From Verrucomicrobiota bacterium (GTDB taxonomy: Bacteria; Verrucomicrobiota; Kiritimatiellia; SS1-B-03-39; UBA6053): a DNA stretch of 55,259 nucleotides. The notes under the pieces are model-generated. The model was not told the DNA's origin and ran no database searches. It saw nothing but the letters and a program-made list of their open reading frames with translations. The DNA is taken from assembly GCA_020831625.1 (NCBI GenBank), contig JAFIGD010000034.1, positions 1 to 55,259 of the forward strand. Reading direction: 5' to 3'. Every line of letters starts with the position of its first letter. Position 1 is the first letter of the stretch. Made by a program: the position numbers and the translations under genes. Of this stretch, positions 40,717 to 54,843 are shown in pieces.

Positions 40717-40729
40717 AGCTTTATGATTC

Positions 40730-40819
40730 CACATTCGTCACTCGTCACTCGTCACTCCACATTCGTCACTCGTCACTCCACATTCGTCACTCGTCACTCG
40801 CACATTCGTCATTCCTCAC
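40730..40819. repeat. tandem repeat with CATTCGTCACTCGTCACTC units
   Basis: Four imperfect copies of a 21-bp unit (ACATTCGTCACTCGTCACTC, variants) run up to about 20 bp before the likely -35 region of the WYL gene. CGTCACTC-type strings also occur at 40629-40637. Confidence 0.8.
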
Positions 40820-47068: not shown

Positions 47069-47920
47069 ATGAATAACCGCTATGACTTTCTCTATTTCTT
47101 CGATTGTACCGATGCCAACCCCAATGGCGACCCCGACGCGGGTAACCTCCCCCGCGTCGATGCCGAAACCGGACAAGGCCTCGTCACCGATGTCTGCCTT
47201 AAAAGGAAAATCCGTAATTTCGTTCAAACCGCCGCACCTGAAAAACGCATTTATTTTCAGGAACGCACTGTTTTGAATACCACCAAAAGGGAAGCTCACA
47301 AAGTTGTAGGAATTGACCCGAAAGATTCAAAAACTCCCAAGCGTGAACTTCGAGACCAAGCGAGTTCATGGATGTGCGCAAATTTCTACGACGTACGTAC
47401 TTTTGGGGCGGTTATGTCTCATGACGTAAATTGTGGTCAGGTGCGTGGGCCAGTTCAAATTTCTTTTGCACGTTCAGTTAATCCAATTGTATCTGCAGAA
47501 CATGCAATCACGCTTTGCGCTGTTGTAAGTGAATCAGATGCAAAAACTAAAGAAACCGATATGGGCCGAAAATTCACCGTGCCCTACGGACTCTACCTTG
47601 CAAAAGGATTCGTCAATCCGTTTCTGGCCGAACAAACCGGTTTCTCCGAAGAGGATCTCGAACTCCTCTTCACGGCCTTGGAGAACGCTTTTCAATTCGA
47701 TCAATCCGCCGCCCGGCCCGCCGGAAGCATGAATGCGCGCAAACTCATCATCTTCAAGCACGACAGCAAGCTCGGTTCCGCTCCCAGCCACAAACTCTTC
47801 GAAAAGGTCACGGTCGCTCGCCCGGATGAGACAAAGCCCCCCCGAACCTTCTCAGACTATTCCGTCACCATCGACCGTCAGTCCCTCCCTCAGGGCATCG
47901 AAATCATCGAACGGCTCTAA
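47069..47920 (+). CDS. cas7: Cas7c (Csd2), backbone of type I-C Cascade
   Basis: 283 residues. Classic Csd2 start: [47 protein letters not shown], then [20 protein letters not shown] and [17 protein letters not shown]. Multiple copies line the crRNA. AAGGA Shine-Dalgarno sequence 9 nt upstream of the ATG (47069). Confidence 0.97.
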
Positions 47921-47927
47921 AACCGAC

Positions 47928-47976
47928 CTCCACGGCGTCGCGGACTTGTTTCAGTCGCCCGACGCCGTGGAGCCTT
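47928..47976 (+). terminator. strong hairpin between cas7 and the accessory gene
   Basis: CTCCACGGCGTCG (47928-47940) pairs exactly with CGACGCCGTGGAG (47960-47972), a 13-bp stem with a 19-nt loop, followed by CCTTTT. It begins 7 nt after the cas7 stop. It may terminate or attenuate transcription before the accessory and adaptation genes, or process the mRNA. Related CGACGCCGTGGAG strings recur at 48005 and, with a base change, at 48926. Confidence 0.6.
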
Positions 47977-48005: not shown

Positions 48006-48043
48006 GACGCCGTGGAGCGTCACCCGACGCGCAACAAGTCATG
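48006..48043 (+). repeat. 38-bp direct repeat, copy 1, ending at the accessory-gene start
   Basis: Starts with the 16-nt hairpin GACGCCGTGGAGCGTC (GACGC/GCGTC arms), continues CCCGA(C/A)GCGCA(A/T)CAA(G/A)TC and ends in the ATG of the accessory gene. Copy 2 at 48927-48964 ends in the cas4 ATG. They differ at five of 38 positions. Confidence 0.85.
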
Positions 48044-48907
48044 AACACCCAAAACGAACGCAAACTCTGCGCCCGTGCCGCCGCCCTCGGCGAAAGCGCA
48101 AGCCCGGATGCCTTCGCCGAACTGACCCAACTCACCCAATCCGACTCCCCCCGCGTCCGCCGCCTCGCCGCGTCCGCCCTGGGCAAGCTCGCGGGCATCG
48201 TCCCGGGCAAGCAGACCGTGGACACTCTCATCCCCCTGCTCCAGGACACCCACCCCCAGGTCCGCCAATACACAGCCAAGGCCCTCTCCGCCTTCGGCGC
48301 GGATGCCGAACCAGCCCTCCCCGATCTCCGCGACCTCTACAAAAACCCTGCCGAAAAAGACTACGTCAAGCGCAGCGTCCTCCGCGCCGGCACCACCATC
48401 CGCGAAGCCGTCCGCATCCGCGATGCGCAGGCCGTGCATCACTGCCGCCGCTGCGGCACCCGCCTCGAACCCGACGAATACGCCCGCTCCATGCGGGCCT
48501 TCCAGCGCCCCTTCTGCGAGCCCTGCTTCGACGAGGTCTACCTCGACCGCCGCAACTTCGAAACCAAAGTCGAACTCCAAAAAACCATCCGCGCCAAAGA
48601 CGGCACCCTGGTTCAATCCGACGGGGAACGCAAAATCGCCGAACTCCTGAGCGCCGAAAACATCCGCTACCGCTACGACGAACGCTTCCGCATTCTCGAC
48701 GGCTACGCCATCCGCCCCGATTTCTATCTCCCCGAATACGATGTCTACATCGAATTCTGGGGCATGGACACCGCCGACTACAAAATCGGCATGCTGAAAA
48801 AACAAAAACTCTATCAACAGGAAGGCAAAAAACTCATTTCCCTCTACCCCGACGACAAACCCCGCCTCCGGGAAACGCTCCTCGGAAAACTGGAGCGTCT
48901 TAAATAA
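48041..48907 (+). CDS. HEAT-repeat, zinc-binding and PD-(D/E)XK nuclease-like protein in the cas operon
   Basis: 288 residues, encoded between cas7 and cas4 on the same strand. Residues about 20-115 are helical HEAT-type repeats (DSPRVRRLAASALGKLAGIV, THPQVRQYTAKALSAFGADA). Residues 133-163 form a zinc-binding unit with Cys135, Cys138, Cys159 and Cys162 (HHCRRCGTRLEP, RPFCEPCFDEVYLDRRNF). Residues about 190-285 resemble PD-(D/E)XK nucleases such as those on helicase-IV-like proteins: Glu196 in SDGERKIAELL, Asp227 in RPDFYLPEYD, Glu238 in YIEFWG, and Lys253/254/256 in MLKKQK. No Cas family was recognised. Host-like GC, unlike cas3-cas7. Plausible roles are DNA processing in adaptation or in target cleavage; neither is shown. 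Confidence 0.85.
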   Translation: MNTQNERKLCARAAALGESASPDAFAELTQLTQSDSPRVRRLAASALGKLAGIVPGKQTVDTLIPLLQDTHPQVRQYTAKALSAFGADAEPALPDLRDLYKNPAEKDYVKRSVLRAGTTIREAVRIRDAQAVHHCRRCGTRLEPDEYARSMRAFQRPFCEPCFDEVYLDRRNFETKVELQKTIRAKDGTLVQSDGERKIAELLSAENIRYRYDERFRILDGYAIRPDFYLPEYDVYIEFWGMDTADYKIGMLKKQKLYQQEGKKLISLYPDDKPRLRETLLGKLERLK

Positions 48908-48926: not shown

Positions 48927-48964
48927 GACGCCGTGGAGCGTCCCCCGAAGCGCATCAAATCATG
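48927..48964 (+). repeat. 38-bp direct repeat, copy 2, ending at the cas4 start
   Basis: Same 38-bp element as 48006-48043, five differences, ending in the ATG of cas4 (48962). Together the two copies bracket the accessory gene. Confidence 0.85.
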
Positions 48965-49621
48965 GCCACTCCCGCTAAAACTCCACCCTACACCGACGAA
49001 CAACTGCTCCTGCTCTCGGGCATCCAGCACTGGATCTATTGCCCCCGGCAATATGCCCTCATTCATCTGGAGCAGATGTGGACAGAAAACCGCTACACCG
49101 CCGAAGGCCGGGTGGTGCATGACCGCGCCCACGAGGCCGGCACGGAAACGCGCCGGAATTTGCGCATCATCCGGGGCCTGACCGTAAAATCCTACCAGCT
49201 TGGACTCACCGGAGTTTGCGACGTGGTGGAGTTCGAACGTCAGCCCGATGGATCGGAGCGCATCCTGCCCATCGAGTACAAACGGGGCAAACCCAAGGAA
49301 CACCTGGCCGATTCAGTGCAACTCTGCGCCCAGGCAATGTGTCTGGAGGAAATGAACGACTGCGCCATTCCCACCGGGGCCATTTTTTATCACAAAATCC
49401 GCAAACGACAGGAAGTCCACCTGGACGAACCCCTGCGGGAGATCACCCGCAAAGCCGCCGCCGCCATGCAGGAAATCATGGGCGGCGGCATCACCCCGGT
49501 CATGGACTATCAATCCAAACGCTGCGATGCCTGCTCCCTGATCGATCTTTGCAATCCCAAGCGCCTGAATAAATCCGCGTCCGCCTATCTCGCGCGCGCC
49601 CAAAAGGAATTGACGGAATGA
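48962..49621 (+). CDS. cas4: Cas4, spacer-processing nuclease
   Basis: 219 residues. RecB-like nuclease with an Fe-S cluster: Cys27 in WIYCPRQYAL and the C-terminal cysteines in RCDACSLIDLC; nuclease motif residues in GLTGVCDVVEF and PIEYKRGKPKEH, with QLCAQAMCLEE following. In type I-C Cas4 trims prespacers and selects PAM ends. The start of cas1 overlaps the stop (ATGA). Confidence 0.96.
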   Translation: MATPAKTPPYTDEQLLLLSGIQHWIYCPRQYALIHLEQMWTENRYTAEGRVVHDRAHEAGTETRRNLRIIRGLTVKSYQLGLTGVCDVVEFERQPDGSERILPIEYKRGKPKEHLADSVQLCAQAMCLEEMNDCAIPTGAIFYHKIRKRQEVHLDEPLREITRKAAAAMQEIMGGGITPVMDYQSKRCDACSLIDLCNPKRLNKSASAYLARAQKELTE

Positions 49622-50951: not shown

Positions 50952-51164
50952 GCTGAAAAACAGTCGGATTTCGCCGAAAAAAAGCAATCGCGAACCCCCG
51001 GCGCTCACAAAAACCCTGGCAGGTTCGCGAAAAACAAAAGCCCTTGGTTTCCTTGCGTTTACAGGTCCCACTGTTCTTTGACAATTCAACGAACCCCAAA
51101 AACAAACCGGGTTCGCGAAACAAAACGCTTTGCACCTTCACACTCAACATGTTACGAGAACACA
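50952..51164 (+). promoter_or_regulatory. CRISPR leader
   Basis: 213 bp, AT-richer than the array, between cas2 and the first repeat. It contains a TTCTTTGACAATTC element (TTGACA at 51078-51083) that could be the -35 of the pre-crRNA promoter. A GGTTCGCGAA box occurs at 51022 and 51110 in direct orientation and in inverted orientation (TCGCGAACC) at 50988, so 50988-51030 can form a 9-bp stem. These may be integration or host-factor sites. Confidence 0.8.
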
Positions 51165-54100
51165 GTCGCCCCCCACGCGGGGGCGCGGATTGAAACAACT
51201 CACTCCGCGCCAGACCGACTCAAAACCTGGTCGCCCCCCACGCGGGGGCGCGGATTGAAACAAGTTTGCGGGTAAAACGTAAATTTGCTTTCTTGTCGCC
51301 CCCCACGCGGGGGCGCGGATTGAAACTCCCGCCACGATTTGCGGTACGCCTGCCACGCACGTCGCCCCCCACGCGGGGGCGCGGATTGAAACCCGCCGGG
51401 AGCACGGCGAATCAGATAAACCCAGTCGCCCCCCACGCGGGGGCGCGGATTGAAACCTTTGAACGTGACATGATTCTGTGTCAGCGTCGTCGCCCCCCAC
51501 GCGGGGGCGCGGATTGAAACTGTACCGAATGCGGTACGGGTCGGAATAACGCCAGTCGCCCCCCACGCGGGGGCGCGGATTGAAACCCACATCCATGCGT
51601 GCATATTAACCACATCAGGTCGCCCCCCACGCGGGGGCGCGGATTGAAACAGCGGCGGCAATAACGGCGGAAGTGTACCGGCGTGTCGCCCCCCACGCGG
51701 GGGCGCGGATTGAAACGTCGGGTTGCTGGACCTCTACCCCGGCGCGGCGTCGCCCCCCACGCGGGGGCGCGGATTGAAACACCAGGGACGCGCCTAATTT
51801 TGTCGGGCCTGAAGTCGCCCCCCACGCGGGGGCGCGGATTGAAACACACAATCCCAATAAAATAGGGTTTGCCACTGACGTCGCCCCCCACGCGGGGGCG
51901 CGGATTGAAACACACGAGCGCGGCAGTGTTTCGTGGGCTGGCCCGTCGCCCCCCACGCGGGGGCGCGGATTGAAACAAAAGTTATATACCTAGCCTCCCC
52001 AAAAAACAGACCGTCGCCCCCCACGCGGGGGCGCGGATTGAAACCAGCTTGGCGACCGGGAACATAGATTCTGGGAAGTCGCCCCCCACGCGGGGGCGCG
52101 GATTGAAACCGTCCGGCGAAGCGCGAACGTGGAGTGTTGCGGGTCGCCCCCCACGCGGGGGCGCGGATTGAAACCGTATGGATGGCTTAACCTGGCCTCG
52201 CCCGTCCGTCGCCCCCCACGCGGGGGCGCGGATTGAAACTCCCCTTAACTGTAATATTTCCACTACCAAGATTGTCGCCCCCCACGCGGGGGCGCGGATT
52301 GAAACATTGATTCGTCGTGATACCCGCCTCGAAAAAGCAGTCGCCCCCCACGCGGGGGCGCGGATTGAAACCCGCGCGGTTGCGTCTGCGGTGTCGCCAA
52401 ACTCGTCGCCCCCCACGCGGGGGCGCGGATTGAAACCAAAACATGCGCGTAAAGCCGGATCTGATCCGCGTCGCCCCCCACGCGGGGGCGCGGATTGAAA
52501 CAAATATCTCGACGATGAGGATGTTGTCCACACGTCGCCCCCCACGCGGGGGCGCGGATTGAAACCGTATTGGTTCCAGACCAACGTCACCACGAGCAAG
52601 TCGCCCCCCACGCGGGGGCGCGGATTGAAACTGGCGAGATGGGAGGCGTGGCGGGTGCGGGCGGAGTCGCCCCCCACGCGGGGGCGCGGATTGAAACCTC
52701 CAATATTCCGGACCTTTCCCTGGGCCCTTCGTCGCCCCCCACGCGGGGGCGCGGATTGAAACGTCAGTTACCTCCATCGGAAGCTATGCGTTCAGCGTCG
52801 CCCCCCACGCGGGGGCGCGGATTGAAACGCGGAGTACTCTCATCCATGGAGAAGAAGTACCGTCGCCCCCCACGCGGGGGCGCGGATTGAAACTTCGTCA
52901 TCGACAACCAGCTCAAGACTCAGCAGGTCGCCCCCCACGCGGGGGCGCGGATTGAAACACAGACCACGGCATTGCGGAAGTTGCCAGATTGTCGCCCCCC
53001 ACGCGGGGGCGCGGATTGAAACATGAAACCGGGGGATGCTTTTGACCCTTGGCCTGTCGCCCCCCACGCGGGGGCGCGGATTGAAACCTCGATAACAAGG
53101 TTGAGCTTATCAGCACACCTGTCGCCCCCCACGCGGGGGCGCGGATTGAAACCACATCATATCCGCCTCCCGGAACTCATCCGGGTCGCCCCCCACGCGG
53201 GGGCGCGGATTGAAACCGGCGACGGTCCATGAAGCGGAAGACGGCCGGGCGTCGCCCCCCACGCGGGGGCGCGGATTGAAACCGGACGATCCGCGGCTGA
53301 CCCGCAAGGACCGGCGTCGCCCCCCACGCGGGGGCGCGGATTGAAACCGCGCATCCCCGCCTCTACTCGGCCTTTGAGCAGGTCGCCCCCCACGCGGGGG
53401 CGCGGATTGAAACTGCTGTTTCAGTAGGGTGTCCATATCAAGCCGGGTCGCCCCCCACGCGGGGGCGCGGATTGAAACCAAAGCAAAGCGGCATAACTCC
53501 ACCGGGCTTTCGTCGCCCCCCACGCGGGGGCGCGGATTGAAACCGGCGAGTGGAAAAACCTCCGCTGCGCCCCCGTCGTCGCCCCCCACGCGGGGGCGCG
53601 GATTGAAACGTGGAATTCGACGGCAGCGACCCCAGCTACAAGTCGCCCCCCACGCGGGGGCGCGGATTGAAACTTCCGTTTGGCCATGTGCAAGACACTT
53701 GATGAAGTCGCCCCCCACGCGGGGGCGCGGATTGAAACCCGTCTGAGCGGATGCCATGGAGGAGGATCACCCGTCGCCCCCCACGCGGGGGCGCGGATTG
53801 AAACTCGCCAATCGCCATACAGCTGCTCATCAAGATGGTCGCCCCCCACGCGGGGGCGCGGATTGAAACCTTGTTGTGATTCAATGTACCGTTCAATTTT
53901 TGTCGCCCCCCACGCGGGGGCGCGGATTGAAACCCGTTTAGGTCTCCCGCCGTCGTCCGAACCTGCGTCGCCCCCCACGCGGGGGCGCGGATTGAAACAC
54001 GGTCGCCGCCTGCGTTGCGCTCGGGAAATCGTCGCCCCCCACGCGGGGGCGCGGATTGAAACTTTGTATGTAATACATAATTATTAACCCCTTTCGTCGC

Positions 54101-54843
54101 CCCCCACGCGGGGGCGCGGATTGAAACGCGCCAACCTCAGCGAGAAGGACTGGGACTTTGTCGCCCCCCACGCGGGGGCGCGGATTGAAACACTGGCGAC
54201 GGGCGCTCCCGTGCAAGTGACCCGTCGCCCCCCACGCGGGGGCGCGGATTGAAACCGCAGAGATGCGGTCGAGGAGGTCGGATTCGGTTGTCGCCCCCCA
54301 CGCGGGGGCGCGGATTGAAACATCCGTGGTTAAAAACTCTTTGGATTTTTCCGCATGTCGCCCCCCACGCGGGGGCGCGGATTGAAACCGCGCCTCCCCC
54401 TGGTACACCGCCGCCAAGCACGTCGCCCCCCACGCGGGGGCGCGGATTGAAACATTAGTTTGAGGGCGCGGCAGGGATTGCGAAGTTGTCGCCCCCCACG
54501 CGGGGGCGCGGATTGAAACGCTGTACCTGGATGATGATGGGTGGAGCTGGCTTGTCGCCCCCCACGCGGGGGCGCGGATTGAAACTCCGGGGGGGCCGGA
54601 TTAGTTGTTGATGACGAGTCGCCCCCCACGCGGGGGCGCGGATTGAAACCCTGGGAAAAGACCGGCTCATCAAACCCGAGAGGTCGCCCCCCACGCGGGG
54701 GCGCGGATTGAAACTTCCTGGGTGGCGGTGGCGGGGAGGGCGGTGAGTCGCCCCCCACGCGGGGGCGCGGATTGAAACAGCGGAGACGGCTGAAGCCTGA
54801 TTTTTCAAATCGTCGCCCCCCACGCGGGGGCGCGGATTGAAAC
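51165..54843 (+). CRISPR. type I-C CRISPR array, 57 repeats and 56 spacers
   Basis: Counting start positions by eye gives 57 copies of a 32-bp repeat beginning GTCGCCCCCC and ending GGATTGAAAC; all copies appear identical. Internal hairpin: CGCCCCC against GGGGGCG with a CACGC loop. Spacers are 32-36 bp, mostly 32-34; spacer 13 (51977-52012) is the longest. The ATTGAAAC end is the crRNA 5' handle, so spacers are read in the + direction. The leader is on the left, next to cas2, so newest spacers are at the left. Open frames within the array are artefacts. Confidence 0.99.

Follow-up and report, generated by a model that had tools for sequence, protein, structure and literature searches.

Homing endonuclease genes, one of the closest described systems, are solitary nuclease genes in intergenic positions that pass from one genome to another (PMC10448857, PMC3943268). 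Another is formed by REPs, which are usually present in more than 100 copies per genome (PMC2817692), and CGTC-tagged REPs have been reported without a dedicated enzyme (PMC3733652). The protein family considered here is not new, as it is already included in PADLOC under the name HEAT_CxxC_PDDEXK; among the literature searched, no paper using this name was found. In the window, that is, the whole stretch of 55,259 nucleotides that was analysed, a member of the family resides inside a type I-C cas operon, accompanied by a short hairpin element, called M in this article. Probably, if by a narrow measure of confidence, M and the nuclease gene represent a mobile unit similar to a homing endonuclease gene, located in a hot spot of the operon, and not a required component of the CRISPR-Cas system.

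The gene, its protein and its family

The gene occupies positions 48041..48907 of the forward strand and encodes 288 amino acids, which confirms the open reading frame that an earlier note, made from the sequence alone, had placed between cas7 and cas4 on the operon strand. Its upstream neighbour is cas7 (Csd2; 47069..47920, forward strand; Pfam PF05107, 6e-101), and cas4 lies downstream (48962..49621, forward strand; PF01930, PADLOC Cas4c). The operon is otherwise a complete type I-C system, with the order WYL-cas3-cas5c-cas8c-cas7-[HEAT-nuclease gene]-cas4-cas1-cas2-CRISPR array; every cas gene in it is an I-C match in Pfam/PADLOC, and the array (51163..54843, forward strand) is built of about 57 units with a 32-nt repeat of the I-C type. 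Short units of CACTCGT / CACATTCGT, repeated in tandem, are located at 40728-40804, immediately upstream of the gene for the WYL regulator. The reading frame is more than a product of chance, since homologues are present in 66 of the 388 genomes of the phylum and the dN/dS ratio between the window copy and a copy from the same genus is about 0.09 (0.037/0.389).

The protein is composed of three parts. The HEAT-repeat domain (residues about 13-115; 48077..48385, forward strand) is recognised by Pfam (PF13646, E=9e-16, the sole Pfam match of the protein), by the helices of the AlphaFold2 model and by alignment A1, which comprises 36 homologues down to 42% identity and in which R41, S45, G48, K49, Q73, Q76, Y77 and Y108 of this part are invariant. 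It is followed by a zinc-ribbon-like unit with four cysteines, C135-x2-C138 ... C159-x2-C162 (48443..48526, forward strand), and by the nuclease domain (residues 166-288; 48536..48904, forward strand), which is supported by alignments A1 and A3 and by the AlphaFold2 domain model. All four cysteines are invariant in A1, as are E196, D227, E238, K254 and Y258 of the nuclease domain. The anatomy proposed earlier, namely HEAT repeats, a zinc unit built on exactly these cysteines and a PD-(D/E)XK-type nuclease, is thus supported by Pfam, PADLOC, the alignment and the model. As to the nuclease residues that had been named, the two glutamates and the aspartate are conserved throughout the 36 homologues, while K254 is the only invariant position of the proposed stretch K253-K256.

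The full-length PADLOC-DB model PDLC01150 matches residues 1-287 of 288 (E=1e-148, 492 bits), and the hallmarks contained in its name, that is, HEAT repeats, two CxxC motifs and the catalytic Glu/Asp/Glu/Lys, are all conserved in A1. Because PADLOC-DB holds this model, the earlier statement that no Cas family was recognised turned out to be incomplete. The AlphaFold2 model of the protein is confident (mean pLDDT 89). When the C-terminal 123 residues were modelled alone, the best PDB match in Foldseek was the catalytic domain of the I-Bth0305I homing endonuclease, 3r3p (probability 1.00, TM 0.51/0.62, with a modest E-value of 0.01), and the next matches were 3hrl and AbaSI, representing DUF559/AbaSI-like nucleases. 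The predicted fold therefore fits a solved member of the PD-(D/E)XK/Vsr-like nucleases, and the protein is presumably an active endonuclease of the Vsr/homing type.

The hairpin element M and the edges of the unit

M, an imperfect hairpin of 35 nt, has the form GACGCnGTGGAGCGTC-loop-GACGCGnAACAAGTC and comprises three short helices. Its 5' copy (48006..48040, forward strand), placed directly before the start codon of the nuclease gene, constitutes the left edge of the unit and is the best match of covariance model R1 in the genome (50.9 bits). The 3' copy (48927..48961, same strand; 38.7 bits with R1) is partly decayed, with a part of its pairing lost, and ends directly before the start codon of cas4. 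In other words, the gene is flanked by two direct repeats, which share 85-88% identity. Moreover, a REP-like palindromic stretch made of inverted M pieces, to which no strand was assigned, lies between cas7 and the nuclease gene (47919..47973) and shares 95% identity with the 3' flank of the gene in a sibling species.

The M motif is also carried by the leaders of other family copies, 0-65 nt upstream of the start codon and in the sense direction. Near the gene (up to 150 nt away), the strict core motif shows a 118-fold enrichment, and in a hold-out of 49 unseen loci, with the pattern fixed beforehand, the enrichment was 23-fold for the strict and 15-fold for the loose version. In the 4.9 Mb host genome, the covariance model found two good matches, one on each side of the HEAT-nuclease gene, and an interpretation of M as one of the genome's ordinary intergenic REPs was rejected on this basis. 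Among 388 genomes, 24 matches were found, and 20 of them lie immediately next to a family member; the seeds are among these 20 by construction, so the informative part of this result is how few matches occur elsewhere. The other four include one relic, one element in the slot between cas7 and cas4 before a four-helix-bundle gene, and two elements standing alone. The relic (L234, G145:C83) lies in an I-E operon before cas7e and consists of an intact M and approximately the first ten HEAT codons, the rest being deleted. At one locus (L134, 1639-5985), six M copies are present, five of which lie outside the leader position. Three follow the gene consecutively, and two are located between beta-propeller genes unrelated to it; M behaves there in a REP-like manner.

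M-type elements are found in one main clade of the family, which includes the window copy, and the other clade shows a variant arrangement. In this second clade (L067, L071, L075, L078, L080), GCTGACTTTGCTTCGCGCG occurs upstream and an inverted copy of it downstream, and homology between the copies stops at these repeats. A general presence of terminal inverted repeats was rejected, as only 7 of 73 loci exceeded the 99% background, although such repeats are clear in the group of L067 and L075.

The structure of M is supported by covariation: among 58 distinct sequences, whose seeds were chosen by eye for their head and tail sequence and thus carry a selection effect, 63 cells were changed on both sides, compared to 12.9 after shuffling, 95% of cells pair, and all slid controls were flat. 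This alignment was fitted to the model, and an unfitted alignment of 40 sequences gave the same picture. Folding of the 5' copy with RNA parameters yields a minimum free energy structure identical to that deduced from covariation, whereas DNA parameters fail to reproduce it, leaving the outer helices unformed. On the sense strand, G.U cells (26) exceed A.C cells (9), and G and A are retained on either side of the internal loops, a pattern expected of sheared G.A pairs. These features favour M as a leader RNA hairpin rather than a DNA structure. The free energy of M is not significant relative to shuffled sequences, and an Rfam search near the gene returned nothing above threshold.

Comparison of copies places the unit edge at M. 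Compared with three I-C copies, the sibling-species copy shows DNA homology from the first base of M (-35/-36) to a point no more than 5 nt from the stop codon; in the window, homology with the L031 copy starts exactly at 48006. M is present on both sides of the gene in the window and in L031, L032, L041, L046, L155, L156 and L157, and a downstream copy, on the same strand, was detected in only about ten loci. In the window (about 5 nt), L046 and L157, the downstream repeat extends across a start codon into 5-11 nt of gene sequence, and in the window cas4 uses this start codon as its own. Such a repeat may have originated from tandem duplication followed by deletion, or from an exchange resembling that at attachment sites. 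A clean empty site with both flanks was sought and not found, so the right edge is provisional and any target duplication hypothetical; in the genus of L032, where such a site was sought, the flanks are not syntenic.

The closest homologue comes from a sibling species of the same genus (G015), with 93% identity at the amino acid and 90% at the nucleotide level, and it lies beside carB, as identified by Pfam. At this carB site, genome G000 carries the counterpart gene without the HEAT-nuclease unit. The DNA flanking the unit is 80-82% identical between the two species, versus 90% for the unit itself, which points to a more recent exchange of the unit. The sibling species has its own I-C operon with no HEAT-nuclease gene, and its cas7-cas4 gap holds only a DUF2442 ORF. 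In that operon (G015:C219, L113/L114), cas4-cas1 is 93% identical to the window at the nucleotide level, the effector part is diverged, and in cas7 only the last 89 nt match, indicating a module swap with a breakpoint near the end of cas7. Insertion sites of the unit across the family are many and unrelated. By these comparisons, the HEAT-nuclease gene moves horizontally as a single gene, and has done so repeatedly.

According to the mobile-unit interpretation, the hairpin leader M and the HEAT-zinc-nuclease ORF would form a self-contained unit, inserted on the operon strand at the junction of the effector module (cas3-cas5-cas8-cas7) with the adaptation module (cas4-cas1-cas2), where it breaks no cas gene and is presumably co-transcribed with the operon. 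The HEAT and zinc parts would recognise nucleic acid, probably M or its transcript, and M, acting as a leader RNA hairpin, may control expression, mark the ends of the unit, or both. Cleavage and repair would then spread the unit, with the nuclease driving its own propagation. Alternatively, M could be only a translational control hairpin, bound by the protein in its own leader, with the gene spreading passively by ordinary recombination and the nuclease playing no part in mobility. The sense-oriented position of M shortly before the start codon, together with its RNA-type fold, G.U bias and G/A internal loops, would agree with such control; it would leave unexplained the second same-strand copies downstream, sometimes containing a start codon and first codons, and the coincidence of the unit edge with M. 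As a complete account, this alternative is possible but doubtful, and it is partly compatible with the mobile unit.

Distribution of the family and its association with cas genes

The family includes 286 relatives in GTDB species genomes, with Thermodesulfobacteriota among the hosts. Its spread between phyla reaches Desulfuromonas, Geothermobacter and Desulfomicrobium, at 71-74% identity, and single genomes may hold several copies, fragments and broken copies. Searches of phages and viral contigs gave no matches, and a viral or phage origin was rejected accordingly; plasmid carriage was likewise rejected, the plasmid matches being only UvrD-type relatives of the nuclease domain. Of 127 loci labelled for cas genes with the aid of neighbour clusters, 122 were placed on the tree: 27 lie at I-C loci, 17 at other cas loci (I-E included), and 78 have no recognised cas neighbour, the last being an upper figure because some of them sit on short contigs. 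The context changed at least 25 times on this tree, and at least 15 of these changes are forced by supported branches. Non-CRISPR neighbours are mostly housekeeping genes, with no neighbour family occurring more than 2 times in 84, and two of the neighbours are type I methyltransferases.

Such a pattern bears on the possibility that the protein is a stand-alone anti-phage nuclease, mobile like many defence genes, which gathers at CRISPR and restriction loci because these are defence islands. The presence of the family and of the related PDC-S69 in PADLOC, the two methyltransferase neighbours and the strong conservation of the protein, with its dN/dS of about 0.09, would fit this role, yet the predominance of housekeeping genes around the non-CRISPR copies and the results of the phage, viral and plasmid searches make it unlikely.

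The cas7-cas4 junction itself proved to be a hot spot for mobile single genes. The earlier view that type I-C operons normally have no gene at this place is half true: among 60 I-C operons that lack the HEAT-nuclease gene (L262-L321), 48 were readable, and 24 of these have a tight junction, whereas 21 carry another small gene. The slot genes encode four-helix-bundle 23S rRNA intervening-sequence proteins (23S-IVP), ORF6N, BRO-N, PIN and Fic-like ORFs; the last four names were assigned by eye, and Pfam was used for one slot gene. The effector and adaptation modules are also decoupled at the junction, with a cas7-cas4 correlation of r=0.34 versus 0.89 (cas7-cas8) and 0.78 (cas4-cas1) within modules at the 26 I-C loci compared for co-inheritance with the HEAT-nuclease gene.

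The 23S-IVP genes resemble the HEAT-nuclease gene in being single small genes of the same slot (L231, L279); they differ in encoding another protein and in having M beside only 1 of 23 examined, and M as a shared hallmark of the two was rejected. Some four-helix-bundle genes (L241-L245, about 1400-1500) are flanked by their own palindromic repeats of the type GAGATTTGAAATTTCAAATCTC, distinct from M. Two slot ORFs (L265, L271) contain HEAT-like repeats fused to a four-helix-bundle domain, linking HEAT to a second class of mobile genes; as such fusions, they were rejected as divergent relatives of the HEAT-nuclease.

Cas-adjacent copies amount to 44 of 122 overall and to 42 of 88 in the part of the tree containing the window copy. 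This is far above chance, as an I-C locus is found in only 79 of 376 genomes and makes up a small share of each. The recurrence next to cas4 and cas7 in different genera, a check that had been suggested for a CRISPR role, was indeed observed: the approximately 27 I-C loci come from Verrucomicrobiota, Kiritimatiellota and Thermodesulfobacteriota, and nearly all have the cas7-X-cas4 arrangement on the operon strand. A functional link to CRISPR would explain the excess too, and to this extent the excess counts against the mobile-unit interpretation.

With such a link, the protein would be a genuine accessory nuclease of CRISPR that I-C, I-E and other operons have taken up repeatedly for prespacer trimming, target degradation or assistance to Cas3/Cas4. 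Apart from adjacency, it could draw on the invariant catalytic residues and on a weak correlation of HEAT-nuclease distances with those of cas1 and cas2 (Mantel r 0.18-0.32 at I-C loci; 0.17-0.32 with cas4 included). Against it, the gene is missing from most I-C operons, with roughly 11 of the 79 I-C-bearing genomes having it there; the same slot accepts genes as diverse as those listed above; and its distances show no correspondence with cas7, cas8 and cas5 (Mantel r 0.05-0.12, p>0.18, 26 I-C loci). For instance, between the window and L118 the HEAT-nuclease protein is 88% identical, compared to 61% for Cas7, 32% for Cas8 and 47% for Cas4. Judging by these comparisons, the gene is not co-inherited with the effector cas genes within I-C.

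Additionally, most homologues lie outside CRISPR loci, often between housekeeping genes, which the earlier note had itself named as evidence against a CRISPR role. The accessory-nuclease explanation is thus quite improbable, and of the options put forward in that note, an unrelated cargo gene fits better than a prespacer-trimming or target-cleaving nuclease. Although over-represented at cas loci, the family does not behave as a stable component of CRISPR. For a CRISPR role, which is possible, the only support is position, and position is poor evidence. Recurrent residency in cas operons alone does not make a gene a component of CRISPR.

Relation to known systems

A nuclease gene with its own covarying, edge-marking hairpin represents a defined and testable object that would amount to a minimal mobile element of a new type, and it hints at the way in which cas operons acquire and exchange their modules. 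By analogy with the lifestyle of TnpB and IscB, here with a Vsr-like fold, M might even be an RNA cofactor, a hairpin from the ends of the unit that the protein binds and is directed by; this is highly improbable, and if true it would reveal a new kind of RNA-dependent mobile nuclease.

The PADLOC entry HEAT_CxxC_PDDEXK describes the same protein family, and its model provides only a name, without the mobile behaviour, the hairpin or the non-CRISPR majority of copies. Free-standing homing endonuclease genes of the Vsr/EDxHD type, such as that of I-Bth0305I, offer the closest solved fold of the catalytic domain. Unlike them, the protein described here contains HEAT and zinc parts and is accompanied by a covarying hairpin, its nuclease is a predicted one, and one conserved target site is replaced by many unrelated sites of insertion. 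The unit is also reminiscent of REP/RAYT systems, in which one gene of the nuclease type is bordered by short imperfect palindromes that are occasionally found alone or in clusters, as at L134. The enzyme, however, is no Y1/HUH tyrosine transposase but, according to Pfam, PADLOC and the predicted fold, a protein of the HEAT plus PD-(D/E)XK type, and M, with two good matches in 4.9 Mb, is an element of low copy number.
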